DNA from: Desulfomicrobium macestii | GTDB lineage: Bacteria > Desulfobacterota > Desulfovibrionia > Desulfovibrionales > Desulfomicrobiaceae | DNA: 64,000 nucleotides | NCBI RefSeq assembly: GCF_014873765.1 | Contig: NZ_JADBGG010000010.1 | Location: 1 to 64,000, forward strand | Direction of reading: 5' to 3' | Part shown: one piece after another, positions 31,206-48,484 of the stretch | How positions within the stretch are numbered: position 1 is the first letter of the stretch | Layout: every line of letters begins with the position of its first letter | The notes under the pieces: model-generated | The model's input: only the letters and a program-made list of their open reading frames with translations | What the model was told of the DNA's origin: nothing | The model's database searches: none | Position numbers and translations under genes: made by a program

Positions 31206-32036
31206 CTACAGTTCCGAGGGCAGCTCTTTGAGCTGGGCATAGGTGAAGACGGGTCCGTCCATGCACACGTACTTCGTGCCGATGTTGCAGCGCCCGCAGA
31301 TGCCCACTCCGCACTTCATGCGTTTTTCCAGGGTGGTGAGGATGTTCTCATCTTCGAAGCCCAGTTTCTTGAGAGCCTGCAGGGTGAACTTGATCATGAT
31401 GGGCGGGCCGCAGGTGATGGCCACCGTGTTCTTGGGCGAAGGGTTGATCTCGAGCAGCACGTTGGGGATGAGGCCGACCTTGTGCTCCCAGCCCTCGGAC
31501 GGGTTGTCGATGGTCAGCACGGTGTTCACATCCTTGCGTTCCGTCCACTCCGGCAGTTCTGCCTTGTAGGTCAGGTCGGCGGGGCTGCGCGCACCGTACA
31601 ACAGGGTTATGTCACCGTAGTCTTTACGGTTGTCGAGCATGTATGTGAACAGGGTCCGCAAGGGAGCCATGCCGATGCCGCCGCCCACGAAGACGATGTT
31701 CTTGCCCTTCAGGTCCTCCACCGGGAAGGAGTTGCCAAGAGGAGCGCGCACGCCGATCTGGTCGCCGGGCTGCAACTGGTGCAGACGGGTCGTGACCTCG
31801 CCCACGCGCATGACGCTGAACTGCAGGTAGTCCTTGCGGGTCGGGGAGGAGTTGATGACAAAGGTCGACTCGCCAACGCCGAAGACCGAGAGCTGCCCCA
31901 CCTGGCCGGGCCGGAAGGTGAACTCCTTCATGCGCTCTTCGTTGTTGATGACGATGCGGAAGGTCTTGATGTTGTGCGTCTCCTGGATCACTTCGACAAT
32001 GGTGGCCATGTCCGGGAGATAGGGATTGGCATTCAT
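31206..32036 (-). CDS. flxA: FlxA: FAD/NAD-binding reductase subunit of Flx-Hdr
   Basis: This 276-residue subunit resembles ferredoxin-NADP reductase and hydrogenase gamma subunits. It has the FAD loop TFRPGQVGQLS, the NAD-binding VFVGGGIGMAPLR, and a C-terminal CGVGICGRCNIGTKYVC iron-sulfur site. In the Flx-Hdr complex it takes electrons from NADH. Its ATG overlaps the flxB stop as ATGA and it is the last gene of hdrCBA-flxDCBA. Confidence 0.92.
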   Translation of the reverse strand: MNANPYLPDMATIVEVIQETHNIKTFRIVINNEERMKEFTFRPGQVGQLSVFGVGESTFVINSSPTRKDYLQFSVMRVGEVTTRLHQLQPGDQIGVRAPLGNSFPVEDLKGKNIVFVGGGIGMAPLRTLFTYMLDNRKDYGDITLLYGARSPADLTYKAELPEWTERKDVNTVLTIDNPSEGWEHKVGLIPNVLLEINPSPKNTVAITCGPPIMIKFTLQALKKLGFEDENILTTLEKRMKCGVGICGRCNIGTKYVCMDGPVFTYAQLKELPSEL

Positions 32037-34017: not shown

Positions 34018-34039
34018 ATGTCCTCCTGTTATTGCAAAT

Positions 34040-34531
34040 CTATCCGTGACACGGGCAAGTCTGCCCCTGACCAGCCTGGACGGCCAGCGTGTTCCAGTCC
34101 GCTTCGGACGCCGGGTTGAAGGTCGGCGCGGGGCCGAGCTCATGGATGCGGCGCGTGAACTCCGTGACCACATGCTGCCAACGCTGACCTTCCGAGGCCG
34201 AAACCCAGGTGTATTCGAAACGGCGCGCATCGATGCCGGTTATGGGCAGGAAGCGCTTGAGCATTTCGAGCCTGCGCCGGGCATAGAAGTTGCCTTCGGC
34301 GTAGTGGCAATCCCGGGGATGACAGCCGGACACGAGCACTCCGTCCGCGCCGTTCATGAGAGAACGGACGATGAAGAGCGGATCGATGCGGCCGGAACAG
34401 GGCACGCGGATGACGCGCAGATCCGTGGGCTGAGTGAATCGGGATACACCCGCCGTGTCCGCGCCGCCGTAGGAGCACCAGTTACAAAGAAAGCCGACTA
34501 TTCGTAATTCGCGAACATCTTGGGCGGGCAT
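34040..34531 (-). CDS. flxD: FlxD: MvhD-like [2Fe-2S] adaptor
   Basis: The 163-residue protein matches the MvhD/FlpD delta-subunit family that docks electron-input modules onto HdrA: FLCNWCSYGGADTAG, PCSGRIDP and GCHPRDCHYAEGN. It ends in CPCHG. The start has GGAGGTG 9 bases upstream and overlaps the end of hdrA by 34 bases. No later in-frame start is credible. Confidence 0.92.
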   Translation of the reverse strand: MPAQDVRELRIVGFLCNWCSYGGADTAGVSRFTQPTDLRVIRVPCSGRIDPLFIVRSLMNGADGVLVSGCHPRDCHYAEGNFYARRRLEMLKRFLPITGIDARRFEYTWVSASEGQRWQHVVTEFTRRIHELGPAPTFNPASEADWNTLAVQAGQGQTCPCHG

Positions 34532-36480
34532 AAGGCGTTCACCTCCGCGAGGATCTGGTTATCTGTGAAATGTTCAAGCTGGATGGCGCCCTGGGGACAG
34601 GTCACCGTGCAGATGCCGCAACCCTGACAGACCGTGTCGATGACCTCGGCCTTCGGATTGCCGAAGCGATCCTCGATGGCCTTGATGGCTCCGAACGGAC
34701 AGGTCTGGATGCATTTGCCGCAGCCGACGCAGCGGGCCGGGTTGACCCTGGAAACTGCCGGGTCGGATTCCAGCTCCTTCTTGGACAGAAGGCCCAGAAC
34801 CTTGGCCGCGGCGGCACTGCCCTGACCGACGGAGGCCGGAATGTCCTTAGGGCCCTGACAGGCGCCGGCCAGGAACACGCCGGCGGTGTTGGTCTCGACG
34901 GGCTTCAATTTGGGATGGCTCTCGACGAAGAATCCGTACTGATCCGGAGCCACGCGCAATTTTTCGCCCAGCTGCACCGCGCCCTTGGCCGATTCGGCGC
35001 CAACGGCCAGAACGACCAGATCGGCGGGAACCTCGACCTGCGTGCCGGCCAGGGTGTCCGCGCCGCGCACGATGAGCTTGTCGCCCTTGGGATAGATCAT
35101 GGCCACGCGGCCGCGCACGTACTGGGCCCCGTATTCTTCCGTGGCCCGGCGGGTGAACTCGTCATAGCCCTTTCCGGGTGAGCGGATGTCCATGTAGAAG
35201 ATGTAGGACTGGGAATCAGGGATGTGATCCTTGGTCAGGATGGCCTGTTTGGCGGTGTACATGCAGCAGAAGCCCGAACAGTACGGACGGTCCACGGACT
35301 TGTCGCGCGAGCCGACGCACTGGATGAAGACCACGTTTTTGGGCTCCTTGCCGTCGGAGGGCCGCTTGACGTGCCCGCCGGTGGGACCGGAGGCCGAGAG
35401 CAGACGCTCGTACTGCATGGATGTGATCACGTCCGGGTAGCGGCCTTCGCCGTACTGCGGGTACTTGTGCCAATCGAAAAGGTCATAGCCCGTGGCCACG
35501 ACGATGGCGCCCACGTCCACGTTGATCAGCTCGTCCTTCTGTTCGAAGTCGATGCACTTGACCGGACAGACCTTGGCGCACAGGCCACACTTGCCCTTGG
35601 TCAACATGATGCACGATTCCGCGTTGATGGCCGCCTTCTTGGGGATGGCCTGCGGAAAGGGGATGTTGATGGAGGGCGCGTTGCACAGATTTTCGTTGAA
35701 CTTGTCGGGAAACTTGCGGCTGGGGCATTTTTCCACGCACAGGCCGCAGCCCGTGCAATCCTTCCAGTTCACGTAGGTCGCCTTCTTGCGGATGGTGATC
35801 TGGAAGTTGCCCACATACCCGCCCACGGCTTCGATCTCGGAACAGGCGTAGAGGGTAATGTTGGGATGCTGGGCGATGTCGACCATCTTGGGGCCCAGAA
35901 CGCAGGACGAGCAGTCCACCGTGGGGAAGGTCTTGTCCAGCTTGGCCATCTTGCCGCCGATGGTCTGCTCGCGCTCGACCATGATGACTTCCTGGCCGCC
36001 GTCCGCGCAGTCCAGCGCCGCCTGGATGCCCGCCACGCCGCCGCCGATGACCAGCACGCGCTTGACCGTCTCGAAGCGTTTGGGGATCAGCGGCTTGTCG
36101 CGACGCAGTTTTTCCACGGCCATGCGCACCAGCTCGGCGGCCTTGCCCGTGTTCAGGTCCTTTGATTTGCCGATCCAGGAGACATGCTCGCGGATGTTGG
36201 CCATTTCAAACATGTAACGGTTCAGTCCGGCGCGTTCCACGGTCCGGCGGAAAGTGGGCTCGTGCATGCGCGGGGTGCAGGAGGCCACGACCACGCCGTC
36301 GAGATTCTTGTCCTTGATGGCCTGGATGATGGCGTCCTGCCCGGGCTCGGAACAGGCATACATCGTGTCCGTGGCGAAAACCACGTCCGGGTAGGTCAGG
36401 GCCGTGGCCGCAACGGACGGACAGTCCACGGTTCCGGCAATATTGCTGCCGCAATGGCAGATAAAAACACCAATTCGCAT
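34498..36480 (-). CDS. hdrA: HdrA: flavin-bifurcating heterodisulfide reductase subunit
   Basis: The 660-residue FAD/iron-sulfur protein has VGVFICHCG-type N-terminus, an FAD Rossmann motif VLVIGGGVAGIQAALDCADG, and several cluster motifs (CTGCGLCVEKCP, CGLCAKVCPVKC, CVGCGKCIQTCPFG, CQGCGICTVTCPQG). In related complexes HdrA bifurcates electrons between ferredoxin and a disulfide acceptor. Start MRIGVF has GGGAGGACG upstream. It lies 10 bases after hdrB. Confidence 0.95.
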   Translation of the reverse strand: MRIGVFICHCGSNIAGTVDCPSVAATALTYPDVVFATDTMYACSEPGQDAIIQAIKDKNLDGVVVASCTPRMHEPTFRRTVERAGLNRYMFEMANIREHVSWIGKSKDLNTGKAAELVRMAVEKLRRDKPLIPKRFETVKRVLVIGGGVAGIQAALDCADGGQEVIMVEREQTIGGKMAKLDKTFPTVDCSSCVLGPKMVDIAQHPNITLYACSEIEAVGGYVGNFQITIRKKATYVNWKDCTGCGLCVEKCPSRKFPDKFNENLCNAPSINIPFPQAIPKKAAINAESCIMLTKGKCGLCAKVCPVKCIDFEQKDELINVDVGAIVVATGYDLFDWHKYPQYGEGRYPDVITSMQYERLLSASGPTGGHVKRPSDGKEPKNVVFIQCVGSRDKSVDRPYCSGFCCMYTAKQAILTKDHIPDSQSYIFYMDIRSPGKGYDEFTRRATEEYGAQYVRGRVAMIYPKGDKLIVRGADTLAGTQVEVPADLVVLAVGAESAKGAVQLGEKLRVAPDQYGFFVESHPKLKPVETNTAGVFLAGACQGPKDIPASVGQGSAAAAKVLGLLSKKELESDPAVSRVNPARCVGCGKCIQTCPFGAIKAIEDRFGNPKAEVIDTVCQGCGICTVTCPQGAIQLEHFTDNQILAEVNALCPPKMFANYE

Positions 36481-36490
36481 TGCGTCCTCC

Positions 36491-37375
36491 CTACCTGGCC
36501 TGCGCCGGTTGTTTGATCTTGCCCAGGGCGAGTCTCGGATCGACACAGAGCTTTTCAAAGCCAAGCACGGCGCGGTCCAGTCCCAGAGCATAGCCAAGGA
36601 GTTGGGTATAATAGAAAACCGGGATCTTGAATTTCTCGTGCAGGGCGTGATTGATCTGCCCCTGCCGCAGGTCCAGATTCATCTGGCACAGCGGACAGGC
36701 GGTCACGAAGGCGTCGGCGCCGACATCACGTCCGGCATCCAGCAGCTTGCCCGACAGCCGAGTCACGATGTCGTTGCGCGGAATGCCGTAGGACGCCCCG
36801 CAACACTCGACCTTGAGCGCGAAAGGCACGACCTCGGCGCCAAGCGCGGTCATCAGGTTGTCCATGGCCATGGGATTTTCGTGATGGTCGAAACGCATCA
36901 GCTCCGGGGGCCTGTTCATGATGCATCCATAGTAGCAGGCGATCTTGATTCCGGTCAGGGGCTTGACCACCTTGGATTTGATCAGCTCAAGATCCACGTG
37001 CTCGGTCAGCACCTGCAACACGGACTGCGCGTCCACGTTGCCGTTGCAGGGCACGTCGAGGAGCGCATTGGCCTTGGTCCGAAATCCGGGATCTTCCATC
37101 TTGTGGGCTGCGGTGCGCAGGTTGGTCAGGCAGCTGGGACAGGGCGTGGTCACCTTGTCCATGCCCATGACCTCGACCTGGGCCAGGTTGCGGGCGGACA
37201 GGGCCGCGGACAGGACATGATTGACGGTGTGCGCGGGAGTGGAACCGCAACAGCTCCAATCCGGAATGTCCACCAGCTCCACGTCCAGGGCCTTGCAGAC
37301 CGCGCGGGTGGAGCTGTCGTATTCCAGGGATGTACCCTGACCGGAACAGCCCGGATAATACGCGATTTTAAACAT
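36491..37375 (-). CDS. hdrB: HdrB: catalytic heterodisulfide reductase subunit
   Basis: The 294-residue protein contains two Cys-rich CCG domains (SCCGSTPAH...CPSC and ECCGASYG...CPLCQMNLD), which in HdrB bind the noncubane clusters that cleave disulfides. In sulfate reducers the partner may be DsrC trisulfide/disulfide or another thiol carrier. It overlaps hdrC by 8 bases. Confidence 0.94.
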   Translation of the reverse strand: MFKIAYYPGCSGQGTSLEYDSSTRAVCKALDVELVDIPDWSCCGSTPAHTVNHVLSAALSARNLAQVEVMGMDKVTTPCPSCLTNLRTAAHKMEDPGFRTKANALLDVPCNGNVDAQSVLQVLTEHVDLELIKSKVVKPLTGIKIACYYGCIMNRPPELMRFDHHENPMAMDNLMTALGAEVVPFALKVECCGASYGIPRNDIVTRLSGKLLDAGRDVGADAFVTACPLCQMNLDLRQGQINHALHEKFKIPVFYYTQLLGYALGLDRAVLGFEKLCVDPRLALGKIKQPAQAR

Positions 37376-37934
37376 TGTCGCCTCCTTTGCGGAACCGCTC
37401 GAAAATGCGGGCCACCTGTTCGCGTCCCTGGATCTGGTGCGGTTTGAAGGGCAGCTTGCCGCGCATGAGAGCCTGCGGAGCCAGATCGACGTCGGTGAAT
37501 ACGCGGCCGGAGCGCGTCATGTACGCGGCCATGAGACCCAGCTCATAGGCGCGTCCATGGCGCTCGACCGAGGCCAGAAACGAGTCGGCGAAAATCTTCA
37601 CGGAGCGCTCCGTGGCGTACCCGGCTTCCCGGGCCATGTGCCGACAGACATCCATGACCAGCGCGACATCGATCTTGTTCGGACAGCGCGTGGTACAGGA
37701 TTGACAGGAGCCACACAGCCACAATGAACGGCTTTTCAGGACTGCTTCCTTTTGTCCGGTCTGAATCAGACGCATGATCTGACTGACCGAATAATCGTAG
37801 GCGAACGTGTACGGACACCCGGCCGTACAGTTGCCGCACTGGTAGCATGTTCTGATTTTCTGATGGCTGCGGGCTTCGACCTCGGCGACAAACTCAAGGT
37901 CGGCAGTGGCAAGATCAAAGATTTGCATGGACAT
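37368..37934 (-). CDS. hdrC: HdrC: iron-sulfur subunit
   Basis: The 188-residue protein has two [4Fe-4S] motifs, CYQCGNCTAGCPY and CGSCQSCTTRCPN, and passes electrons from HdrA to HdrB. The start is uncertain. MSMQIFDL at 37934 is used here, but in-frame ATGs at 37976 and 37928 are also possible and none has a strong ribosome site. It heads the seven-gene operon. Confidence 0.9.
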   Translation of the reverse strand: MSMQIFDLATADLEFVAEVEARSHQKIRTCYQCGNCTAGCPYTFAYDYSVSQIMRLIQTGQKEAVLKSRSLWLCGSCQSCTTRCPNKIDVALVMDVCRHMAREAGYATERSVKIFADSFLASVERHGRAYELGLMAAYMTRSGRVFTDVDLAPQALMRGKLPFKPHQIQGREQVARIFERFRKGGDNV

Positions 37935-38026
37935 ACCCAACTTGCGGTAAAGAACGGCGAACCGTCCGGTTGACATGAATCCCGCCCCGAAAAAAATCTA
38001 CGCGCACAATGAACCTTTTTGACACA

Positions 38027-38264: not shown

Positions 38265-39677
38265 CTAGAGCAGGTGCGCCGTCTCGAAAATGCCCTCGGC
38301 CAGTGTCGGATGAGCATGTATGGTCCGGGCCAGGTCTTTGGCAGTGGCGCCGAGCTGCATGGCCAGGGTCGGCTCCGCGATGATGTCCGAGACGTGGGCG
38401 CCTGCCAGGTGCGCGCCAAGAAGCTTGCCCGAGTCGGCGTCCACCACCAGCTTGAAGAGCCCCGCCAGCTCGCCCATGGCCTGGGCCTTGCCCAGTTCAC
38501 GGAAGTTGCTCTGCGGGCAGGTCACGTTGAAGCCCTGCTCCCGCGCCAGGGCCTCGGTCAGACCCACCGTGGCCACCTCGGGAGAGGTGAAGACCGCCGC
38601 CGGCACCTTGGAGTAATCCATGTCCTCGAACGCACCCAGACAGTTCCTCACCGCCACGAGCCCTTCCATGGCCGCCACGTGGGCCAGCATGACCCGCGCC
38701 GGGCCAAGCACGTCGCCTACGGCGTAGATGCCAGGCACAGAAGTCTCCAGGCGAGCGTCGGCCTTGATCCAACCGCGCTGATCCGTCTCCACGCCAGCCT
38801 CGGCCAGGCCCAGGCCAGACGTGTTGGGCACGCGCCCCACGGCCACCAGGACCACGTCGGCTTCCAGCACGCTCTCCTTCTGCGCCGACGCCGGAAGGTC
38901 CTTCACGAAAGGCGAGGGCCCGAGCGTCACCTGCACGCCCGTCTCCGTCACTTCCGCTTTGGTGGCCGTGCGCGCCAGCTCGCAGGCGATGCCGCGCTTC
39001 TTCATCTCACGCTGGATGAGCTTGCTCAGGTCCGCGTCGATGGACGGCACGGGGAGGATGCGGTCCAGCCCCTCCACCACCGTCACCTTTGAACCGAAGG
39101 CCTGGAAGATGAAGGCCAGTTCGCAGCCAATGACGCCGCCGCCGACCACCAGCATCCGTTTCGGGACGGTCTGCAGTTCCAGGGCGTCGTCGCTGGTGAT
39201 AATGCGCTCGTGGTCAACGGGCAGGGTCGGAATGTTCAGGGTGCTCGACCCTGTGGCGATGATGACCCTGTCGCCTTCCACTTCCTGCACCGCTCCGTCG
39301 GCACCGTGCACGCGCACCAGGCACGCGCTTAATACCTCGCCCCGGCCGCGCAGCAGCGTGACCTTGAGTTTGGAGCACGTCTTCTCCAGACCGCCGCGCA
39401 GAATCCCGGACACCTTGTCCTTGCGCGCGATGATGGCGGGCATGTCCGGCACGGCCTCACCGGCCCCGCTGATGCCGAACTCGGCCAGGCGATGCGCCGT
39501 CTCCAGCGCCTCGGCCGAGGCCTTCAGGGTCTTGGTCGGGATGCAGCCCCAGTTCAGACAGGTCCCGCCCATGTGGGCGGATTCCACCAGAGTCACCTCG
39601 GCCCCGGCCTTGGCCGCGGAAAACGCCGCAGTGTACCCGCCGGGGCCGCCGCCAATGATGGTGATGCGTTGCGCCAT
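38265..39677 (-). CDS. lpdA: Dihydrolipoamide dehydrogenase
   Basis: The 470-residue flavoprotein has the FAD motif GGGPGGYTAA, the redox pair Cys40/Cys45 in GGTCLNWGCIP, the NAD motif VVGGGVIGCELA, and the C-terminal HAHPTLAEGIFETA with the catalytic His. It oxidises or reduces lipoyl groups with NAD(H). AAAGGAGG precedes the ATG. It is the last gene of the sulfotransferase-glutaredoxin-gcvH-lpdA set, so its lipoyl partner is likely the adjacent H-type protein. No 2-oxoacid dehydrogenase or GcvP is in the window. Confidence 0.95.
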   Translation of the reverse strand: MAQRITIIGGGPGGYTAAFSAAKAGAEVTLVESAHMGGTCLNWGCIPTKTLKASAEALETAHRLAEFGISGAGEAVPDMPAIIARKDKVSGILRGGLEKTCSKLKVTLLRGRGEVLSACLVRVHGADGAVQEVEGDRVIIATGSSTLNIPTLPVDHERIITSDDALELQTVPKRMLVVGGGVIGCELAFIFQAFGSKVTVVEGLDRILPVPSIDADLSKLIQREMKKRGIACELARTATKAEVTETGVQVTLGPSPFVKDLPASAQKESVLEADVVLVAVGRVPNTSGLGLAEAGVETDQRGWIKADARLETSVPGIYAVGDVLGPARVMLAHVAAMEGLVAVRNCLGAFEDMDYSKVPAAVFTSPEVATVGLTEALAREQGFNVTCPQSNFRELGKAQAMGELAGLFKLVVDADSGKLLGAHLAGAHVSDIIAEPTLAMQLGATAKDLARTIHAHPTLAEGIFETAHLL

Positions 39678-39700
39678 GGCAACCTCCTTTGTCAGGACGC

Positions 39701-39819
39701 CCCAAAACGGCGATCTGCTGCGTCAGCGAAAAAATCCAGACCGCTTATGTATGAGCAATACACTGCCCGCCCTGGATTTTTTCGCTTCCTTGCATCTCAC
39801 CATTTTTGAACGGCCTGCG
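39701..39819. repeat. Palindromic intergenic repeat, copy B
   Basis: The element runs from CCCAAAACGGCGATCTGCTG to CATTTTTGAACGGCCTGC, homologous to 31065-31184. Its core is a perfect 15-bp inverted repeat AGCGAAAAAATCCAG (39725-39739) / CTGGATTTTTTCGCT (39772-39786), which could fold into a hairpin with T-rich arms. It lies between gcvH and lpdA and may attenuate lpdA transcription. Confidence 0.88.
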
Positions 39820-39954
39820 ATTTTTGAATTTTTCAACAGTCAGCTATGTATAAAGATGCGCCCGAGTCGTGCGGGCCGTGCTCATTCAGCTTGGTCCCGC
39901 GCCAGCCTAAACGCAGGCCGGCGCAAAGACCGGGAGGGAGATCGAGCGGAAAGG

Positions 39955-40338
39955 TTAGGCCGAGATGATCTTCTGGTATTCGGCCGCGGTGATGATCGCT
40001 TCGGACAGGTCGTCCGGCTTGATGCGCACCAGCCACCCGGCGCCGTAGGGGTCGGAGTTGACCAGTTCGGGAGTGTCGGAGAGCGCTTCGTTGACCTCCG
40101 CCACCATGCCCGAGAGCGGGATGATGGCCGGGGAGACGACCTTGGCCGACTCGATCTCGGCGCAGGACACGCCCTGGTCGAAATGCGAACCTACCTCGGG
40201 CAGGTCGATGAAGATGACCTCGCCAAGCTGGTCCTGGGCAAAGTCGGTGATGCCGATGACAAACGAGCCGTCGCCGGCCTCTTTGGCCCAGAGGTGCTCG
40301 GCGTGATAGCGGCGGTCGTCAGGAAAGTTCAATGCCAT
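39955..40338 (-). CDS. gcvH: Lipoyl carrier protein (glycine cleavage H type)
   Basis: The 127-residue protein has the H-protein fold signature ITDFAQDQLGEVIFIDLPEVG and the lipoylated Lys66 in EIESAKVVS. GGAGGACA precedes the ATG. GcvP and GcvT are absent from the window. Instead it sits 29 bases after a glutaredoxin-like gene and before lpdA, with lplA 6 kb away. A role as a stand-alone lipoyl carrier, as known for LbpA in sulfur-oxidising Hdr-like systems, is worth considering. A normal glycine cleavage role with P and T encoded elsewhere is the alternative. Confidence 0.9.
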   Translation of the reverse strand: MALNFPDDRRYHAEHLWAKEAGDGSFVIGITDFAQDQLGEVIFIDLPEVGSHFDQGVSCAEIESAKVVSPAIIPLSGMVAEVNEALSDTPELVNSDPYGAGWLVRIKPDDLSEAIITAAEYQKIISA

Positions 40339-40367
40339 GATGTGTCCTCCATGGGTTCTCGTGCGTA

Positions 40368-41186
40368 TCAGTGTGCCTCGGGCTTGCGAATCTCGGCCTT
40401 GACCAGGGACGAACGCACCTTGGAGCGGTACGGCAGCAGGGCCTGGTTCTCCAGTGCTTCGAGCCCGTCGGCTTGCTGCGCCTCGATGAAAACTGGCAGC
40501 ATGCGGTCGCTGCAGGCGTCGAGGACCATCTTCGCGGCCTCCCCGGCCTCGGCGGGGGTGACGCGGGTCATGCCGTCGCCATTGGCGTAGGCCGAGGCCA
40601 GAACGCGGATGAGGCCGTCGACGTGGGCCCGGGTCAGGACGATGCTCTGCTTCAGGTCCTCGGCGGACAGCTCCCCTCCGGCGATAACCGGGTACAGGGC
40701 GGCCGGGCCGATGATGTCCAGCACCATGCGGGTGACGAAGCCTTCGTCCAAAACACGCTTCAGCAGGTCGGCGCGGCGGCCGTCGGCATGCAGCTCAACA
40801 GTCAGGCCGCCCTTGGCCAGCAGACGCACCAGAGTGACAAAGTTGTCTTCCTGGCCTTCGGGACAGGCCGACACATTGAGACCGGAAATCCAGCCGTGCA
40901 GCAGCTCGCTGCGCGTCACGCAGGCTTCCAGCACGCGGCCCGACAGCAGGTAGGCCAGAATTTCGCCCGTACCCTGCTTGATGACCTGCCCGTCATCGAA
41001 AATTGGAAATTCCACGCCCTCGGGGTTGCGGTAGATGGAGGAACGGTTGGCGCGGTAGTATTTATTGAAGATGTCCTTGTCTTCCTTGAAATCGAAGGTC
41101 GTGTACTCCTGCCCGCGTTCATCCAGGAACGCCTTGACGATCTTGCAGCGCAGGCAGTCAGGGGCGGTGTAGAGGGTGATGCTCAT
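40368..41186 (-). CDS. Glutaredoxin-domain fusion protein
   Basis: The 272-residue protein opens with a thioredoxin-fold domain (residues 1-85; redox pair Cys11/Cys14 in APDCLRCKIV, cis-Pro region VEFPIFDDG). The remaining 185 residues are not glutaredoxin. They include a segment (RMVLDIIGPAALYPV...LKQSIVLTRAH) that by eye resembles the later strands of radical-SAM activase barrels, but no CxxxCxxC is present. Start MSITLY is preferred (GGAG 9 bases upstream). An ATG 9 bases earlier abuts the ribosome site. It sits between the sulfotransferase-family gene and gcvH. The function is unknown; it may exchange electrons with the lipoyl carrier. Confidence 0.72.
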   Translation of the reverse strand: MSITLYTAPDCLRCKIVKAFLDERGQEYTTFDFKEDKDIFNKYYRANRSSIYRNPEGVEFPIFDDGQVIKQGTGEILAYLLSGRVLEACVTRSELLHGWISGLNVSACPEGQEDNFVTLVRLLAKGGLTVELHADGRRADLLKRVLDEGFVTRMVLDIIGPAALYPVIAGGELSAEDLKQSIVLTRAHVDGLIRVLASAYANGDGMTRVTPAEAGEAAKMVLDACSDRMLPVFIEAQQADGLEALENQALLPYRSKVRSSLVKAEIRKPEAH

Positions 41187-41240
41187 GATTTTCATTCTCC
41201 GGAAAATGCGGGAGCAGCCGAACTGCCCCCGCAGGGATTG

Positions 41241-42686
41241 TTACTCGTCGTCTTCGATGGAGGCCACGCACAGGGCGTTGCTGCCGCCGTAGGGCACGCA
41301 GCCGTCCACGCTCACTTCCTTGGCGCGGTCGCCGAACGCGGCGGCCCCGGGAACGCGGAACGTGTTCACATCAAGGGGTGCAATGGGCGTCTCCACCGGC
41401 TTCTCCACCTGCGGTACCCACTCGTAAGGCACACGGTAGGCGCGGTAGGTCATGTTCATGGGGATGAACTTGCCCTTGTAGGGAGAAATGAATTCCCACA
41501 CTATCTCATAGTCGGGGGTGACCTCGAACACGCGGCCGTTGGAACCTTCGGTGATCAGCGTGTTGCCGTTGGGCAGGCGCTGCATGCCGCTGATGAACGG
41601 GCTGTAGAAGCGGTTGCTGTCCATGGGGAACAGGAACCCGGCTTCGCTCGGGGTGTACTGCCAGACGATCTTCATGGCCACGGGATCGATCTCCAGCACG
41701 CGGGAATAGTCGCGCAGGGCGGCCTTCACTCCCGTGGGAGCGCCCGGGTTGGGCACGTCGTAGCCGCCCCACCCGCCGTTGTCGAAAATGAGGATGTTGC
41801 CTGCGCCGGGCAGACCGGCCGGGATCATGTGGCAGTGGTGCTGGCCGATGATCCAGCCAATGGCCTTGAGTTCCGGGGTCGAGTCGTAGTCCGGGCCCAG
41901 CTTCCAGACGACCTTGCCGGTCTTCTTGTCGATGATGAAGGTGATGTTGGCCTCGCGGCCGTCAACGATGATGTTGTCCGGATGGAAGCGCTCGTCGCCC
42001 GCATCGTACCACTTGTTGGGGCCAAGGACCGACATGGAGTTGATATGCATCCAGTCGCCCATGCCCTCGGGCTGGGTCGGACGGTAGTTGGGATTGCGGG
42101 CCAGGGTGTTCTTGGGCCCTTCGCGGAAGCCGAACTCCGCGAAATGCTCATGGCAGTTCCACTCCCAGACGATCTCGCCTTCCCAGTTCACTTCCAGGAT
42201 GAGGTCGTCCAGGAGCAGCTTGTCGGAAATGGCCGAATTGCGAGCGTTGCGGTGCGCCAGGACCAGGGTATTACCCGAATCGGTCTTGGGCTCCATGCCG
42301 GGAGCATAGTAACCCACGGGGTTGCCCTCGCGCTGGAAGTCGTGGTGATAGCGCGCCATCCAGCGCCCCTCGTAGCCCGGATCCTCGATGTACTCGTTCT
42401 GGTCGAAACTCCACACGACATTGCCGTCCCAGTCGATCTGCACCACGTCGATGCCGTCCTGCACGCTGAACTTGCCGTCGCGACGGCCGCGGCTGGACAT
42501 CAGGTAGCCGCCGGGAAAAATCTTGTTGGGCATACCCAGCACGCCCTTCCAAACATTGTGTTCACGGCCGTTCATGTCCATCAGAACGGCGCCCACTTCC
42601 TGGGCCTGAAAAATGGTAAGCCCGTTCCAGCACTTTTCGGGGTTGTAAACCGTCACGCCGGTGGGATAAATGGTTGGATGACCCAT
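41241..42686 (-). CDS. Arylsulfate sulfotransferase (ASST) family protein, apparently cytoplasmic
   Basis: The 481-residue protein shows ASST beta-propeller features: DWMHINSMS, GQHHCHMIP, DYSRVLEIDP with MKIVWQYTP, and RLPNGNTLITEG followed by GRVFEVTPDYEIVWEF. Classical enzymes move sulfate between phenolic esters through a catalytic His in the periplasm. Here no signal peptide is seen after the start MGHPTIYP, which has AAGGAG upstream. The C-terminus carries two Cys and an acidic EDDE tail. It is first in an operon with glutaredoxin-like, gcvH and lpdA genes. The substrate is unknown. Confidence 0.82.
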   Translation of the reverse strand: MGHPTIYPTGVTVYNPEKCWNGLTIFQAQEVGAVLMDMNGREHNVWKGVLGMPNKIFPGGYLMSSRGRRDGKFSVQDGIDVVQIDWDGNVVWSFDQNEYIEDPGYEGRWMARYHHDFQREGNPVGYYAPGMEPKTDSGNTLVLAHRNARNSAISDKLLLDDLILEVNWEGEIVWEWNCHEHFAEFGFREGPKNTLARNPNYRPTQPEGMGDWMHINSMSVLGPNKWYDAGDERFHPDNIIVDGREANITFIIDKKTGKVVWKLGPDYDSTPELKAIGWIIGQHHCHMIPAGLPGAGNILIFDNGGWGGYDVPNPGAPTGVKAALRDYSRVLEIDPVAMKIVWQYTPSEAGFLFPMDSNRFYSPFISGMQRLPNGNTLITEGSNGRVFEVTPDYEIVWEFISPYKGKFIPMNMTYRAYRVPYEWVPQVEKPVETPIAPLDVNTFRVPGAAAFGDRAKEVSVDGCVPYGGSNALCVASIEDDE

Positions 42687-42797
42687 CTGATGCACTCCTT
42701 TTTTCTGGTGATAAAGGACAGGCCAGCGCCGCCCGGCCATGTCCACGTCTTTTGCCTTGTCTGCGGAACGTCTTTCCATGAAAAACATGGGCAGCGC

Positions 42798-42813
42798 TGT
42801 TGCGTTCCTTACA
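42798..42813 (-). promoter_or_regulatory. Putative regulator box 1 (ASST operon)
   Basis: TGTTGCGTTCCTTACA (plus-strand reading) lies 112 bases before the sulfotransferase-family gene. It matches boxes at 43898 and 44973 and has outer TGT/ACA symmetry. Confidence 0.55.
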
Positions 42814-42888
42814 AATCCGTAAAAAAACTTTTTTGCATTCCTTCGAAATATTCCAGCATCCTAGCGAAACACCTTTTTTTTCGAATAT

Positions 42889-43785
42889 CTAGAACAGCTT
42901 GATCAGCTTGAATTCCGCCCGCCAGTCCTCGGTCAGGGTCTGCTTCTCGTATTCACGGTATGCCGCGCCGAGGACAACCCCACCCAAGGTCACGCCGTAC
43001 TCGGGGAACTTCAGATTGAATTTGGGACCGGCAAAAAAGGTCTTCACGTCGTTTTCCTGATTCACGCCGTCGGCCTCGTCGGCCTGCGTCCATTCGTAGT
43101 AGCCTTCCAGCCCCAGATCGAGCCGGTTGTTCAGGGCGTAAGCGTAATGGCCATTGACACGCAGTCGGTCGCCCTTGGTCACTTCCTTCCTGCCTTCGGT
43201 GTAGATGAGGTAGCTCAGGTCGGTTTCCAAGCGGTGAGAACCGATCATCCATGTGGCGCCGGCACCGACCAGACCGCCCCAGGCGCCGGTACCGATATTG
43301 TTTTGACCGACCTCGCCCGTCGGCACGAACATACCGAGGTCCAAAGCCAGACTCAGGGGAGCGCCGTCCTTCTGCGACATGAACTGCTTACGGAGAATGG
43401 CCGTCGTATCCCCCAGGCCTCCGGACCAGGCGTCGTTCTTCCCGTCGGTTTCGATAGTGTTCATCAGGAACGGAGTGGCCGTGCGGATATCCCAACCCTT
43501 GGCGATTCCATAGCGCGTCTTGAACACGATGTTATGGCTCGACACTTCCTTGTCCGCACCGTCCTCCTCGGAAGTATGCAGATACCACTCGTCCTTGTGG
43601 GCATAACGGTAGTTCGCCACGGCGCAGAACTTGCCCACGGGAAAACCCATGCCGCCCGGACCGTGATTGACGCCGACGGCGCCGGCTGGTGCGGGGACCG
43701 AGGCATTTTGTGAGCAGTGACCCGAAGCGGCAGGCAGGACGAGGCAGCAGCCCAGCAGCAGGCTCGACAGAATTTTCAGACGCAT
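42889..43785 (-). CDS. Outer-membrane beta-barrel protein (phenol-degradation MetA-like)
   Basis: The 298-residue precursor has a signal peptide (MRLKILSSLLLGCCLVLPAASG). It shows alternating hydrophobic/aromatic strands, a GPGGMGFPVG entry segment, many Tyr/Gly residues, and a C-terminal LIKLF ending in Phe as outer-membrane barrels do. The layout resembles the PF13557 (MetA-pathway of phenol degradation) transporter-like family. It may admit aromatic or anionic solutes. It lies just upstream of the ASST operon on the same strand and carries the same upstream 16-base box. Confidence 0.7.
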   Translation of the reverse strand: MRLKILSSLLLGCCLVLPAASGHCSQNASVPAPAGAVGVNHGPGGMGFPVGKFCAVANYRYAHKDEWYLHTSEEDGADKEVSSHNIVFKTRYGIAKGWDIRTATPFLMNTIETDGKNDAWSGGLGDTTAILRKQFMSQKDGAPLSLALDLGMFVPTGEVGQNNIGTGAWGGLVGAGATWMIGSHRLETDLSYLIYTEGRKEVTKGDRLRVNGHYAYALNNRLDLGLEGYYEWTQADEADGVNQENDVKTFFAGPKFNLKFPEYGVTLGGVVLGAAYREYEKQTLTEDWRAEFKLIKLF

Positions 43786-44109
43786 GTGATTCTCCCTTCG
43801 ATGTTCAGGTTGAGATAATCGCACCCGCATAATATGACGCGAGCGCAAACAGTTTGTGAAACCAGGAACAACCTATGGGGAATCCGCGGGGAAACTCTGT
43901 TGCATTTGTTACATTCCTAGAAAAAAAACGACGCAAAATACGACCATGGGCAGAAGGACGTCCATACGACATTCACGGCGCAACGGCTTTCATCACACGA
44001 CAAAATGCGTGAAAAACGTTGAAGCGGATCGATATTTCAGCAAGCTCTCAAAATGATGGAAGAGGGAGGGGAAGGAAAACTGAGCAAGGGGGGGCGGCCG
44101 GCCTTCGCC
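43786..44109. other. Intergenic region with upstream box
   Basis: This 324-base AT-richer gap holds the upstream region of the outer-membrane gene, including the 43898 box, and the end of the crp-type gene. No further gene is supported. A GC palindrome near 44093-44109 follows the regulator's stop but lacks a clear T-run. Confidence 0.5.
43898..43913 (-). promoter_or_regulatory. Putative regulator box 2 (outer-membrane gene)
   Basis: TGTTGCATTTGTTACA lies 113 bases before the barrel gene start, at almost the same distance as box 1 from its gene. It differs from box 1 at 3 of 16 positions. Confidence 0.55.
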
Positions 44110-44814
44110 CTACTCGTTTTGGTAGACCAGTTCTTCGAAACGGGGTCGGTCGAGGATATCGACCTCGTCGCGTGAGTACGGCCCCAGAATGCCAGCCTTT
44201 TCCAACTCACGCAGGGATTTGTTGAGGGTCACGCGGTGAACACCGAGAAGATTGGCCAGTTCCTGTTGATTGAGGCCGGGTCGGACAACGAGAGGGCCAC
44301 TCTCGCTGACCTCCTCCATCTGACGCAGGTGCAGGTACTTGCAGATGCGCGACGGCAGGTCGTCCAGACTGAGGCTCACGGCCTGATTGATCAGCACGCG
44401 GACCTTGAAGGCCAGCGATCGGAACAGCGCGATCATCAGGTCTGGGTGCCGGGGCAGGATTTCCTCAAGGACACACCTGCGCGCAAACGCATAGACCGTG
44501 GAATCCGTTCCGGCGACAATGGCGCTCCTGGACGGGAGCTCGTCGAAAAAGGGCGTCTCGCCGAAAAGCGAGTCCGGGCCGATGCTCCAAATGATCTTTT
44601 CGCGGCCATCCAGGGTCGATCTGGTCAGCCATATCTCTCCCACATCAAGAAAAAAGATAAAACTATCGTCGGTCAACCGCGAAAAAATCTGCGCCCCTTT
44701 CAGAAATTTCATCCTGCGGCCCTGCGAAATAACCTTGCGCCAGCATCCAGCCTCGGAAGGAATTCGGGAAAACTCCAGTTCTTTCATTTCCGTACCCGAT
44801 CTAATGGCAGTCAT
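44110..44814 (-). CDS. Crp/Fnr-family transcriptional regulator
   Basis: The 234-residue protein has a cyclic-nucleotide-binding-type beta-roll (GEIWLTRSTLDGREKIIWSI, GPDSLFGETPFF), a dimer helix, and a C-terminal winged helix-turn-helix (LNQQELANLLGVHRVTLNKSL). No Fnr-type Cys cluster is present. Start MTAIRSG has GGAGGTGAAG 8 bases upstream. It is divergent from the SLC13 transporter gene and near the ASST and barrel genes, whose upstream regions share a 16-base motif, so it is the likely local regulator. The effector is unknown. Confidence 0.88.
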   Translation of the reverse strand: MTAIRSGTEMKELEFSRIPSEAGCWRKVISQGRRMKFLKGAQIFSRLTDDSFIFFLDVGEIWLTRSTLDGREKIIWSIGPDSLFGETPFFDELPSRSAIVAGTDSTVYAFARRCVLEEILPRHPDLMIALFRSLAFKVRVLINQAVSLSLDDLPSRICKYLHLRQMEEVSESGPLVVRPGLNQQELANLLGVHRVTLNKSLRELEKAGILGPYSRDEVDILDRPRFEELVYQNE

Positions 44815-44972
44815 ATGCTTCACCTCCATGTCCTGAACCCCGGGCCGTTTGCGCCTTGCCACAAATGAATTCCACGTCTAGCCCCGCCTTCGGCAACATC
44901 CGCAACGGCAAAAAACTCCAGGGCAGTTTGTTCGTGAAAAAAGTGACGATAATCTTTCCGCGTCGTAAAAAA

Positions 44973-44988
44973 AGTGGCAATTGTTACA
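44973..44988 (+). promoter_or_regulatory. Putative regulator box 3 (transporter gene)
   Basis: AGTGGCAATTGTTACA matches box 2 at 13 of 16 positions. It lies 62 bases before the SLC13 start, in the gap divergent from the crp-type gene, so it could serve both. Confidence 0.45.
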
Positions 44989-45049
44989 GCATGGCTGCCT
45001 CGCCCACCGTATTCTCCAACAATCAAATTTCATCCCAAGGAGATATCCG

Positions 45050-46453
45050 ATGGTCGCAACCCCACAAATGCCGGAAAAAGAGACCCTTTTCAAATGGGCC
45101 TTGAGTCTTGTCATTCCCCTGGCCGTCTATTTTCTGCTGCCCCTGGACGGCGAAACCCTGACTCGTCCCATGGCCCTCTTTCTTGCCGTCACGGCCTGGG
45201 CCGTCGTGGTCTGGGCGACGGACATCATCAATGAAGTGGCCGTCGGCATCCTGTTGCCCGTACTGTACATCGTCATCTGCGGTGTTCCTCAGAAGGTCGC
45301 CTACGGTCCATGGACCTCTCAGGTGCCCATCATCGTCATCGGCGGCTTCACCCTGGGCAAGATCCTGCAAGACACCGGCCTCGGAAAGCGCATCGGTCTA
45401 ACCTGCGTACGGGCCATGGGCGGCAGCTTTGTCGGCGCCCTCTGGGGCCTGACCTTGGCGGTCTTCATCGTCGCGCCCCTGGTTCCGGCCATCACAGGCA
45501 AGGCGGCCATCTTCTGCGCCATCGCCATCAGCCTGTGCGAAGCCCTTGACTTCCGGCCCAAGAGCCGTGAGGCCACAGCCGTCATCCTGGGCACCTGCCT
45601 GGCAGTGGCCTCGTCGAAGCTCTGCTACCTGACGGGAGGGGCGGACCTCGTCCTGGGCATGGGACTGGCGGACAAGGTCATGGATACCAAAACCGCCTGG
45701 ATGCAGTACGCGTATCACAATTTCATCCCGGGCACCATCTACACGGCCATGTCCGTCGGGCTGGTCATGTTCATGCTGCCCTCCAAGGTCGACCGTAAGA
45801 CCCTGGGTCCCATTCTGGAAACAAAGCTCAAGGAGCTTGGTCCGGTCACCAAGACACAGAAGACCGCCGCCTTCCTCATGCTCCTGACCCTGATCCTGCT
45901 GGCCACGGACACCCTGCACGGCATCAACGCCGGACTCATTTTGATCATGGTCGCCTTTGCCTCCTTCCTGCCCGGTGTCGGACTGATGAACGGCGAACGT
46001 TTCAGCAAGATCAACTTCGCCCCACTCTTTTTCATCATGGGCTGTATGGCCATTGGCAGCGCCGGCGGAAACCTCAAGGTCACCCAGTGGATCGCCAGCA
46101 TCACCTTGCCCTTTTTTCACGAGATGAGCCCGACCTCGGCCGGAACAGCGGCATACATACTTGGCGCCCTGGCCAACTTCCTTCTGACGCCCCTGGCCGC
46201 GACGACCACCTTGACCTCCCCCCTGGTCGAACTGGGCGTACAGATGGATATGAATCCCAGGGTTCTGTACTATGCATTCCAATATGGCCTGGACAACTAC
46301 GTATTCCCGTATGAATACGCCGTGCTCCTCTACTTCTTCAGCTCCGGATTCATGCTCTTCAAAGACATGGTCAAAGTCCTGGCCGTACGCATGGTCTTGA
46401 CGGCCTTTTTCATCGCCTTTATCGCTATCCCGTACTGGAAATTCGTTCTTTAG
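45050..46453 (+). CDS. SLC13/DASS-family anion transporter
   Basis: The 467-residue polytopic membrane protein has DASS features: an initial LPLDGETLTRPMALFLAVTA segment, ATDIINEVAVGILLPVLYI, and repeated hydrophobic helices with TPLAATTTLTSPLV near the end. The family imports dicarboxylates, sulfate or related anions, usually with sodium. Start MVATPQMP has CCAAGGAG upstream. Context suggests a substrate tied to the sulfotransferase/lipoyl operon. Sulfonates, sulfate esters or dicarboxylates are all possible. Confidence 0.85.
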   Translation: MVATPQMPEKETLFKWALSLVIPLAVYFLLPLDGETLTRPMALFLAVTAWAVVVWATDIINEVAVGILLPVLYIVICGVPQKVAYGPWTSQVPIIVIGGFTLGKILQDTGLGKRIGLTCVRAMGGSFVGALWGLTLAVFIVAPLVPAITGKAAIFCAIAISLCEALDFRPKSREATAVILGTCLAVASSKLCYLTGGADLVLGMGLADKVMDTKTAWMQYAYHNFIPGTIYTAMSVGLVMFMLPSKVDRKTLGPILETKLKELGPVTKTQKTAAFLMLLTLILLATDTLHGINAGLILIMVAFASFLPGVGLMNGERFSKINFAPLFFIMGCMAIGSAGGNLKVTQWIASITLPFFHEMSPTSAGTAAYILGALANFLLTPLAATTTLTSPLVELGVQMDMNPRVLYYAFQYGLDNYVFPYEYAVLLYFFSSGFMLFKDMVKVLAVRMVLTAFFIAFIAIPYWKFVL

Positions 46454-46471
46454 CTTCCGACTGTCCTCCGC

Positions 46472-46507
46472 TGTCCGAGCCATGAAATCATGGCTCGGAC
46501 AGTTTTC
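46472..46507 (+). terminator. Terminator between the transporter gene and lplA
   Basis: TGTCCGAGCCATGA and TCATGGCTCGGACA form a perfect 14-bp stem around a 2-base loop, followed by GTTTTC. Confidence 0.85.
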
Positions 46508-46554
46508 ATACATCAATTCTTCACGACGCTTCCCACCCTTAGCCAAGGAGCCCC

Positions 46555-47532
46555 ATGCGCTTCATCCACAACACCAGCACCGACCCGGCCTTCAACCTCG
46601 CCGCCGAGGAATGGCTGCTGCGCCACACGGACACGGACATCTTCATGCTCTGGCGCAACGCGCCCGCCGTCATCGTCGGACGCAATCAGAACACCGCCTC
46701 GGAGATCGACGAGGATTTCGTGCGCGAGCGCGGCATCACGGTCATCCGTCGCCTTACGGGTGGCGGGGCCGTGTTTCATGATCTGGGCAACGTCAACTTC
46801 ACCTTCATCCAGCTCGGCAGGCAAACCAAACATCTGGACTTCCATCGCTTCACCGCACCGATCATGGAAGCCCTGCAGGCCATGGGCGTGGACTGCCGGT
46901 TTGAGGGCCGCAACGACCTGGTCATCGACGGGCAAAAGTTTTCCGGCAACGCCCAGCTCCTGGAAAAGGACCGGGTCCTGCATCACGGCACCCTGCTCTT
47001 CTCCTCCCAGATGGCCGACCTGTCCGGAGCATTGAGGGTCAACCCGGTCAAGTACGTGGACAAGGCCGTCAAGAGCGTCGCCAAGCGGGTCACCAACATT
47101 TCAAGCCACCTGCCCGAACCCATGGATGTGGAGACCTTTGTCCGTCGCGTCATGGCCCATGTTTCCGGCAGCGAGTCAGAAACCCTGCCCGGCCTTCACG
47201 CGAGCGAGGAAGCGGCCATAAACGGACTTGTCGAATCGAAGTACGGCACGTGGGACTGGAATTTCGGCTCCTCGCCCAACTATGGCTTCACGCGGGGCAC
47301 GCGCACCGAGGGCGGCGTCGTGGAAATTCACCTCGATGTCCGACACGGCCGCATCGAACAGGCCAGGATTTTCGGGGATTTCTTCGGAGCGCGGGCCGTG
47401 GCTGAGCTTGAGGCCCTGCTCGCGGGCTGCCGTCACGAACGAAGCGAACTGTCCAGACACCTGGCGGATGTCCGGGTCGACGAATTCATCCGCAACGTGG
47501 ATAACGCGACATTCATGGACTGTCTTTTCTGA
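46555..47532 (+). CDS. lplA: Lipoate--protein ligase
   Basis: The 325-residue ligase attaches lipoate to carrier lysines. It has LWRNAPAVIVGRNQN, RRLTGGGAVFHDLGNVNFT, the catalytic Lys in DGQKFSGNAQ, and a C-terminal accessory domain. It follows the SLC13 gene after a strong terminator. The nearest lipoyl protein is gcvH, 6 kb away on the other strand, which suggests this ligase serves that carrier. LplA may also serve other lipoyl proteins in the cell. Confidence 0.94.
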   Translation: MRFIHNTSTDPAFNLAAEEWLLRHTDTDIFMLWRNAPAVIVGRNQNTASEIDEDFVRERGITVIRRLTGGGAVFHDLGNVNFTFIQLGRQTKHLDFHRFTAPIMEALQAMGVDCRFEGRNDLVIDGQKFSGNAQLLEKDRVLHHGTLLFSSQMADLSGALRVNPVKYVDKAVKSVAKRVTNISSHLPEPMDVETFVRRVMAHVSGSESETLPGLHASEEAAINGLVESKYGTWDWNFGSSPNYGFTRGTRTEGGVVEIHLDVRHGRIEQARIFGDFFGARAVAELEALLAGCRHERSELSRHLADVRVDEFIRNVDNATFMDCLF

Positions 47533-47706
47533 TATGCCCTTCCTTGCACGCCCGGCGCAATGTGTTCGGGCTGGTTACACATACCAAGTAAAATTGAGAA
47601 CCGTTTGCAATAAATCAGGACAGGACCAATTGCTGCCGGCAATGCTTGACGGAACACTCCCGAACCTTCATGTTGCATGAAGTCAAACCAACGCGAAGGG
47701 GAACAA

Positions 47707-48042
47707 ATGGACCAAAACAAGCGCCGCTGGGACCGCGAACCGATAACCGTGCCGTGCAAGATCAGCTACGAAGGCGATACGCGCAACTCGGCTCCGGGCA
47801 GCATCATCAACCTGAGCCCGGGCGGGGTCATGCTCGCGACGGAACAGGGATTCATCGCCAATGAACGCGTCGCCATCACCCTTGAGGATGAATACGACGC
47901 CCTGCTCTTCGAATTCGCCGAAATCCTGGTCGGCACGGTGCGCTGGAGCCAGTCCACGTCGTCCCTGGGACAAAACGTCTACCACGTGGGAGTCGCCCTG
48001 GAGCGTGAACTGCCGCGCAGAATGGTGCTGACTGAGCAATAA
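47707..48042 (+). CDS. PilZ-domain protein
   Basis: The 111-residue single-domain protein has RRWDREPITVPCKI with the Arg pair and INLSPGGVML (the D/NxSxxG c-di-GMP loop). A short in-frame extension upstream is rejected because AAGGGG precedes MDQNKRR. It probably binds c-di-GMP, is likely cytoplasmic, and its target is unknown. A second PilZ gene follows. Confidence 0.85.
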   Translation: MDQNKRRWDREPITVPCKISYEGDTRNSAPGSIINLSPGGVMLATEQGFIANERVAITLEDEYDALLFEFAEILVGTVRWSQSTSSLGQNVYHVGVALERELPRRMVLTEQ

Positions 48043-48139
48043 TCGCGTCCATTCTCCTTGTGTTGTCTTCGCGCATCCTCTATAGACCCAGAAAATTTGG
48101 CTTTTCCAAAAAAACCTGCCGCAGCGAGAGGACCTTTCC

Positions 48140-48484
48140 ATGGCTCATGAGATGCAGAAAAACAGGAAATGGAAGCGCTTCGGCTGTCTGCTTCCGTGCA
48201 GGATCATCCCGCAAAACGAGACCGACATGGTCGTCTCGGCACGGATCATAAACATCGGCCGAGGCGGTCTGCTCATCGAAGCCGACTATGGTTTCAACAT
48301 GGGAGACAGGGTCATCGTGGCGGCTGCCAATGCGGGGTTCGAACGCTTCGAGGCCATCGAGGAAGTGCACGGGACCGTGCGCTGGGGACAAATCGACGAC
48401 AGTTCACTGATGGGACTCTATTACATCGGGGTCGAATTCGACGAACTGCTCCCCCTCAAACAGGCGGTGGCCGACCAGGACTGA
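48140..48484 (+). CDS. PilZ-like protein, second copy
   Basis: The 114-residue protein is related to the previous one (MVVSARIINIGRGGLLIEAD, HGTVRWGQ...YYIGVEFDELL). The N-terminal Arg motif reads KRFGCLLPCR and the loop NIGRGG lacks the usual Ser, so c-di-GMP binding is uncertain. It lies 97 bases downstream of the first PilZ gene, likely an old duplication. Confidence 0.78.
   Translation: MAHEMQKNRKWKRFGCLLPCRIIPQNETDMVVSARIINIGRGGLLIEADYGFNMGDRVIVAAANAGFERFEAIEEVHGTVRWGQIDDSSLMGLYYIGVEFDELLPLKQAVADQD

Follow-up and report, generated by a model that had tools for sequence, protein, structure and literature searches.

The 64,000-nucleotide stretch of Desulfomicrobium macestii DNA analyzed here, referred to below as the window, carries genes for a cytoplasmic-type aryl-sulfate sulfotransferase (ASST), a glutaredoxin fusion protein (GrxF), an H-type lipoyl carrier (GcvHx), and a lipoamide dehydrogenase (Lpd), and we conclude that these four form a real, conserved system. 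Its novelty lies in the wiring, with every part belonging to a known family or fold. We give even chances to the reading that it is a dedicated system for imported (aryl) sulfate esters, in which the ASST would hand the sulfuryl group to a thiol on a route to sulfite, and NADH, acting through Lpd, the lipoyl carrier, and the glutaredoxin, would re-reduce the thiols. In the open-access literature, taken at the level of titles and the beginnings of abstracts and with most subscription papers outside this scope, we recognized neither a system joining an ASST to lipoyl and glutaredoxin proteins nor a route that reduces sulfate esters directly to sulfite. The four genes are as follows:

41241-42686 (frame 41241-42788), minus strand: ASST, 481 amino acids (PF05935, E 1.6e-23)
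40368-41186 (frame 40368-41195), minus strand: GrxF, glutaredoxin fusion (PF00462 over residues 6-44 only, 23.7 versus 22.9 bits)
39955-40338, minus strand: GcvHx, H-type lipoyl carrier (PF01597, E 7e-38)
38265-39677, minus strand: Lpd, lipoamide dehydrogenase (TIGR01350, 472.6 bits versus a cut-off of 408.8)

The host genome comprises 4.5 Mb in 99 contigs, with the window on G000:C10. All genes named in an earlier note on this DNA, namely these four together with genes for an outer-membrane protein, a Crp-type regulator, an SLC13 transporter, and the lipoate ligase LplA, were found where it had placed them and with the families it had assigned, which Pfam and NCBIfam confirm, so its gene set is borne out.

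Conservation of the gene set

The set was followed through 150 genomes from the host's order and 395 from its phylum, with a close ASST defined by a best match of at least 66% identity and a true GrxF by an E value of 1e-39 or better, weaker GrxF matches being NrdG-like by position. Close ASSTs occur in 30 of the 150 genomes and true GrxF in 28, all of them among those 30; the two ASST genomes without a true GrxF are G061, in which the contig ends inside the ASST, and G104. At least two GcvH genes are present in 27 of the 28 GrxF genomes versus 19 of the 122 others, a comparison uncorrected for relatedness, and in 23 of the 28 GcvHx is a near neighbor of GrxF. A scan of contigs with two short GrxF patterns, which is blind to divergent GrxF, yielded 20 named loci (some from the same genomes as those bearing G handles), with an ASST in 18, an SLC13 gene in 17, and a Crp-type gene in 16; in two further loci the sequence stops at GrxF.

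Closely similar genes are found in a Desulfomicrobium metagenome-assembled genome (MAG; L059, GrxF 84% identical), and the set recurs, rearranged, in families f1, f3, and f5 of the order, in the arrangements ASST-GrxF-GcvHx-Lpd, GrxF-Lpd2-GcvHx, and ASST-GcvHx-GrxF; many f5 loci hold a different Lpd instead, 33-36% identical to that of the window. The phylum sample added four genomes outside the order with GrxF (L218, L219, L220, and L221): L221, from another family of the phylum, has all four genes together as TRAP-ASST-GcvHx-GrxF-Lpd, L220 has GrxF-ASST followed by TRAP genes, and in L219 the ASST and GrxF lie approximately 3.5 kb apart. The linkage of ASST with GrxF, which spans three families of the order and three genomes beyond it, is therefore more than chance, and the possibility raised in the earlier note, that the gene order is kept only in close relatives, does not hold.

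The sulfotransferase and its cysteine tail

For the ASST, 42686 (MGHPTIYPTG...) is very likely the true start, because this position is common to most relatives, in which MGHPT stands directly before the propeller; a signal peptide is absent by eye. The protein matches PF05935 with 83.8 bits versus a cut-off of 24.2, and its AlphaFold model (mean predicted local distance difference test score, pLDDT, 78.7) resembles Cpz4 of caprazamycin synthesis (VIA Z 29.4, root-mean-square deviation, rmsd, 3.1 over 332) and Escherichia coli ASST (Z ~21, rmsd 3.4-3.7 over ~325). The next structural matches are 3no2 at Z 20.4 and others at no more than 17.5, so the fold score alone is indecisive for the E. 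coli enzyme. Neither phmmer with the window protein nor a profile of the close family reached E. coli ASST; a broader profile did, in an alignment that seemingly set His436 one column off, which realignment resolved. By homology, H356, N358, R374, and H436 of the E. coli enzyme correspond to H214, N216, R244, and H283 of the window protein, and these four are invariant in all 15 aligned rows; H436 is described as the covalently sulfated residue (PMC13426309). The E. coli Thr501 is not kept, being Ile365 in the window ASST and Gln in Cpz4, and His252 falls outside the aligned stretch. Judged from its sequence, the protein is a cytoplasmic-type aryl-sulfate sulfotransferase with a predicted sulfuryl-transfer activity.

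The earlier note had left the substrate open among aryl sulfates, sulfonates, and other sulfur compounds. Sulfate esters fit better because the ASST keeps the sulfuryl-transfer residues, and sulfonates fit less well. It is nevertheless conceivable, if unlikely, that the ASST fold serves a different group or substrate, such as a sulfonate or a sulfinate, which the dithiol relay would then reduce: identity to solved ASSTs is only ~15-21%, the E. coli threonine is missing, and TRAP importers, which occur at some of the loci, are also described as serving sulfonates such as isethionate (PMC6386719). Against this reading stand the four invariant catalytic residues, the sulfohistidine included.

The C-terminal tail is modeled with low confidence and is therefore probably flexible; it carries one cysteine near its end, Cys473 in the window protein (codon 41268-41270). 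Among proteins with complete ends, this cysteine is present in 47 of 47 cytoplasmic-type ASSTs (>55% identity) and missing from all 14 of the other ASST-family proteins, exported or divergent, from the same loci, 12 of which have N termini that look like signal peptides by eye only. Some ASST frames contain in-frame stops. As a separate observation, ASSTs with Tat- or Sec-like N termini adjoin small secreted-looking proteins at L058:8211-12005, L207:2920-4726, and L209:373-4168, with a further exported-looking ASST paralogue adjoining in L058 and L209.

The lipoyl carrier and its dehydrogenase

GcvHx matches the GcvH family (NF002270, 148.7 bits versus a cut-off of 117) and has its lipoyl lysine, by homology, at Lys66 within ESAKVVS. 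A second GcvH-type gene stands with gcvPA and gcvPB at G000:C14, 9.6-12.3 kb, and gcvT is on contig C1, which makes GcvHx one of two H-type proteins in the genome, 38% identical to its canonical counterpart. The earlier statement that GcvP and GcvT are absent thus applies to the locus and not to the genome. In a tree of 83 H-type proteins (131 columns, many forks open), 23 of the 24 H proteins whose genes lie near ASST or GrxF cluster together with support 94/87, placed with other H proteins lacking nearby gcv genes, and all 44 H proteins encoded near gcv genes, the glycine cleavage system (GCS) rows, lie across a branch with support 82/88 from that group. The remaining one, L205, comes from a different family of the phylum and sits on a long branch immediately outside the GCS rows; the H protein of L218, encoded near both GrxF and gcv genes, falls among those rows. 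Approximately unbiased tests leave standing a single clade for all 24 ASST-linked proteins (p 0.37; seen in 14% of bootstrap trees) and likewise one for the 44 GCS rows (p 0.228). A grouping of GcvHx with canonical H proteins, which the earlier note had considered, is not what the tree gives.

Lpd passes TIGR01350 and has the CxxxxC redox pair (GTCLNWGCIP), and so scores as a true lipoamide dehydrogenase. Three same-genus genomes with the set encode an Lpd 82-92% identical to it, and G019, where the contig end cuts the neighboring GcvHx, encodes one 87% identical; in three same-genus genomes that lack the set (G024, G034, and G044), the best match reaches only 34-35%. A further homologue, 35% identical and with a CxxxxC pair, lies on C1 of the host genome, and G055, of the same genus and without GrxF, has a 64% identical Lpd within an OsmC-GcvH module.

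These data bear on the alternative, offered for the H protein in the earlier note, that the H and L proteins of the locus are ordinary glycine-cleavage components and their position near an ASST is a coincidence. The families and the lipoyl-lysine site are the same, GcvHx exceeds the NCBIfam GcvH cut-off, and in L218 GrxF sits beside a gcv operon. The set differs from glycine cleavage in having no P or T gene, in its separate branch, and in an Lpd whose close form, among the same-genus genomes checked, accompanies the set and is absent where the set is missing and one GcvH is kept. P and T are indeed encoded elsewhere, as that alternative supposes, but the tree split speaks against an ordinary H protein; given this split and the separate gcvH-PA-PB and gcvT genes, we reject a glycine-cleavage role for GcvHx and regard this alternative as the least probable of those considered.

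A second alternative takes its lead from LbpA, the GcvH-related carrier of Hdr-like sulfur oxidation, and has GcvHx exchanging electrons with the neighboring Hdr complex. An HdrABC-Flx block does lie 3' of Lpd in the window (32033-37976), yet among 57 annotated loci with GrxF or ASST, close copies stand near the set only in L040 and L041, both from the same genus. Solidesulfovibrio alcoholivorans (L066:54-5212) has a different block of HdrA-, HdrB/SdhE-, and HmcF/DsrK-like genes beside SLC13, all below NCBIfam cut-offs, so that some Hdr link may exist there; L210 and L221 have one weak Hdr label each, and no HdrA/HdrB/HdrC block was found in the remaining loci of the 57. The electron exchange with Hdr-Flx proposed earlier is accordingly unsupported, and we reject coupling to the block of the window. 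LbpA is described as having a conserved cysteine pair near both ends (PMC6067878), whereas the only cysteine of the window GcvHx is the internal Cys59; cysteines near 24-26 and 114-116, resembling the LbpA pair, occur in four of 24 GcvHx rows (L047, L071, L158, and L181). The parallel with LbpA drawn in the earlier note survives as one of working alike: both are relatives of GcvH that stand outside glycine cleavage and probably take part in sulfur metabolism, and LplA lies nearby in the window. It does not extend to the cysteine pair or, across the 57 loci, to Hdr genes as conserved partners, in whose place the set has Lpd and a glutaredoxin. Electron exchange with Hdr is thus very improbable, scarcely more credible than glycine cleavage.

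Other lipoyl carriers came to light in the course of the survey. A module of an OsmC-like protein (TIGR03562, below cut-off), Lpd, and a noncanonical GcvH recurs at L148:723-3002, L150:2848-5343, L151:2084-4492, and L214:4903-7261, with a lipoyl-synthase-like gene (by eye) adjoining in L150, and may serve lipoyl-driven peroxide reduction with its own carrier. In f5, L139:1-5512, L145:1-4596, and L146:467-5501 combine a multiheme cytochrome with a NarI-like part, a GcvH, a CCG iron-sulfur protein resembling TfrB/DsrK, and an LplA-like gene, a combination that might connect lipoyl groups with the quinone pool. At L142:2442-5994 (G031), GcvH and Lpd adjoin an HdrB-like gene.

The glutaredoxin fusion

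GrxF joins a glutaredoxin domain (C11-x-x-C14) to a barrel of the radical-SAM type without conserved cluster cysteines. Across the alignment of 34 collected relatives the CxxC is kept in every one, and its two cysteines are the only conserved ones, with no 4Fe-4S cluster cysteines among them. In the model (mean pLDDT 91), the first 85 residues form an NrdH-like glutaredoxin and the C-terminal domain resembles a radical SAM domain of the pyruvate formate-lyase (PFL) activase type (3can, Z 11.5, rmsd 4.3 over 156). Weak matches of the GrxF profile elsewhere in the genomes, over approximately residues 98-200, and an NCBIfam NrdG2 match in the window GrxF itself agree with descent of this domain from an NrdG-like activase; one conjecture is that it docks the tail of the ASST or the lipoyl carrier. 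Only part of GrxF is matched in G023 and in G077, and the G077 match contains an internal stop. We also considered selenocysteine in GrxF and rejected it: matches to Uxx-star models were below cut-off, and the CxxC is Cys in all 34 relatives.

Proposed mechanism and its main rival

In the mechanism that we propose, an importer would bring in R-O-SO3-, His283 of the ASST would take the sulfuryl group with release of ROH, and the group would pass as an S-sulfonate to a thiol, be it the tail Cys473, GrxF, or dihydrolipoyl-GcvHx. A second thiol would attack the S-sulfonate, letting out sulfite and leaving a disulfide; thioredoxin-dependent reduction of 3'-phosphoadenosine 5'-phosphosulfate (PAPS) is a model for such thiol-driven sulfite release. 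GrxF and lipoyl-GcvHx would carry the disulfide to Lpd, which would reduce it with NADH, and sulfite would go on to DsrAB, the net effect being an ATP-free bypass of ATP sulfurylase and adenosine 5'-phosphosulfate (APS) reductase. The fuller version, a new branch of sulfur respiration in which the ASST turns sulfate esters directly into sulfite, with its cysteine tail as a sulfo-carrier, for which the DsrC arm offers a parallel, and with NADH-driven discharge through glutaredoxin and lipoyl groups, is more tentative and falls somewhat short of even chances. Dihydrolipoamide, with a reported potential of -0.29 V (PMC6067878), could act as the donor if the group-transfer energy of the ester is high and sulfite is kept low.

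The core of this scheme, in which a lipoyl/dithiol relay linked to NADH and a cytoplasmic ASST together act on an imported sulfur compound, had been put forward in the earlier note and gains support from the conservation of the gene set, the split among carriers, the absence of close Lpd orthologues where the set is missing, and the ASST tail cysteine. The physiology of the hosts points the same way. In 12 ASST-bearing genomes, an ATP sulfurylase match is absent from five and DsrA is above cut-off in all, from which it follows that free sulfate would not be respirable in the five and sulfite would be usable. Three of these genomes are nearly complete (G119, one contig, 99%; G149, 98%; G104, 99%), and four of the five, all except G104, have GrxF. 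Bilophila wadsworthia reportedly cannot use sulfate (PMC11610557, PMC6386719). The missing ATP sulfurylase favors a route ending in sulfite, without proving it. In such bacteria, sulfite derived from organosulfonates is reported to sustain respiration at no expense of ATP (PMC6386719), and the isethionate sulfite-lyase pathway (IslA/IslB) is in this respect the nearest parallel, with organosulfur import giving sulfite for Dsr; IslA/IslB cleave the C-S bond of a sulfonate by radical chemistry, whereas for the window set we propose an O-sulfo ester and a dithiol relay.

Several observations weigh against the sulfite route. The 12 genomes were hand-picked, the remaining two without an ATP sulfurylase match are a Bilophila MAG (L062) and a Mailhella MAG (L069), with no completeness given for either, and species without the enzyme can live on sulfonates. 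The set is also not uniformly kept: GcvHx was not found beside GrxF in five of the 28 GrxF genomes (G077, G084, G097, G119, and G149), all but G077 having another noncanonical H protein elsewhere; only nine of the 20 named loci have GcvHx (nine are without it and two are cut by contig ends), and only 11 have an Lpd type. G104 has the ASST without GrxF, and in L218 (7466-11017) GrxF adjoins a gcvT-H-PA-PB operon with no ASST within 20 kb, so GrxF may be a partner of lipoyl H proteins more generally. Cys108 of the window GrxF had to be rejected as the key thiol of the family, being Gly in seven of the 34 relatives. Finally, the acceptors named for aryl sulfotransferases in one account are phenols, alcohols, amines, and sugars, with no thiol among those named (PMC13426309).

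The last point leads to the main rival of a reductive route, namely that the ASST does no more than shuttle sulfuryl groups among phenols or other acceptors, in detoxification or scavenging, and that the glutaredoxin, lipoyl, and Lpd proteins merely keep its cysteines reduced, as a cytoplasmic equivalent of the DsbL/DsbI pair attending the periplasmic E. coli ASST. We consider this improbable, though less so than any other alternative. The ASST genes of E. coli and Klebsiella are described as also sitting with thiol-redox genes (PMC13426309), known enzymes use hydroxyl or amine acceptors, and the tail cysteine could be regulatory. An importer, a dedicated carrier, and an Lpd are, however, much for the upkeep of one cysteine; ASST and GrxF are kept in species without ATP sulfurylase; and in G003, where both ASST matches look exported and are without the tail cysteine, there is no true GrxF. 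The nearest known systems are AssT-DsbL-DsbI of E. coli CFT073, in whose operon thiol-redox partners are likewise reported (PMC13426309), and Cpz4 of Streptomyces, both with PAPS-independent aryl sulfotransferases: the beta-propeller and the four mapped catalytic residues are shared, whereas the window ASST has no signal peptide but a cysteine tail, an importer, and a reducing cytoplasmic glutaredoxin/lipoyl/Lpd chain instead of an oxidizing Dsb pair.

Flanking genes and transport

The four genes are preceded on the minus strand by an outer-membrane protein gene, giving the order outer-membrane protein, ASST, GrxF, GcvHx, and Lpd, with gaps, taken from the coordinates, of ~200, 54, 29, and 277 bp; the Crp-type, SLC13, and LplA genes lie upstream:

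42889-43848, minus strand: outer-membrane protein of the Phenol_MetA_deg family (PF13557)
44110-44862, minus strand: Crp-type regulator, divergent from the transporter gene (Pfam)
44981-46453, plus strand: SLC13/DASS-type anion symporter (PF00939 met, TIGR00785 below cut-off)
46555-47532, plus strand: lipoate-protein ligase LplA (TIGR00545 above cut-off)

The SLC13/DASS-type symporter is a probable organic-anion importer, and the importer varies among loci between SLC13, MFS, and TRAP types, the MFS form being aromatic-acid-like (TIGR00895, below cut-off). The outer-membrane protein is a possible substrate pore; the Phenol_MetA_deg type is found in L039, L040, L041, L056, and L152, and other loci have a DESULF_POR1-type porin. 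Together, the aromatic-acid-like MFS protein and the Phenol_MetA protein hint at aromatic substrates. LplA possibly supplies the lipoyl group, although its linkage is inconstant (absent beside SLC13 in L041 and L059). A scan for promoters and terminators was uninformative, with 4 promoter-like sites versus 2.4 expected and 11 terminator-like sites versus 9.4 expected. Beyond LplA, at 47677-48484, the window encodes two small PilZ-like proteins in tandem (labeled by eye); the pair also occurs near the transporter in L039, L040, and L041, and one of the two in L059.

Biological significance

The entry of sulfate esters into respiration is described as proceeding through sulfatases, which free sulfate that then needs activation with ATP (PMC5573963, PMC6129605). 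The conserved set may let sulfite-respiring bacteria draw sulfite from sulfate esters without ATP, and such a direct reductive route, if true, would be an energetic shortcut. Because it would bypass ATP sulfurylase and APS reductase, bacteria without ATP sulfurylase, of the Bilophila and Mailhella type, could respire aryl sulfates of host or plant origin, and host and plant phenol sulfates would become a possible new source of hydrogen sulfide in the gut. The natural acceptors of bacterial ASSTs are described as mostly unidentified (PMC13426309); the proposed route would, if true, give these enzymes a physiological role and would add a further job for GcvH-type lipoyl carriers besides glycine cleavage and that of LbpA.

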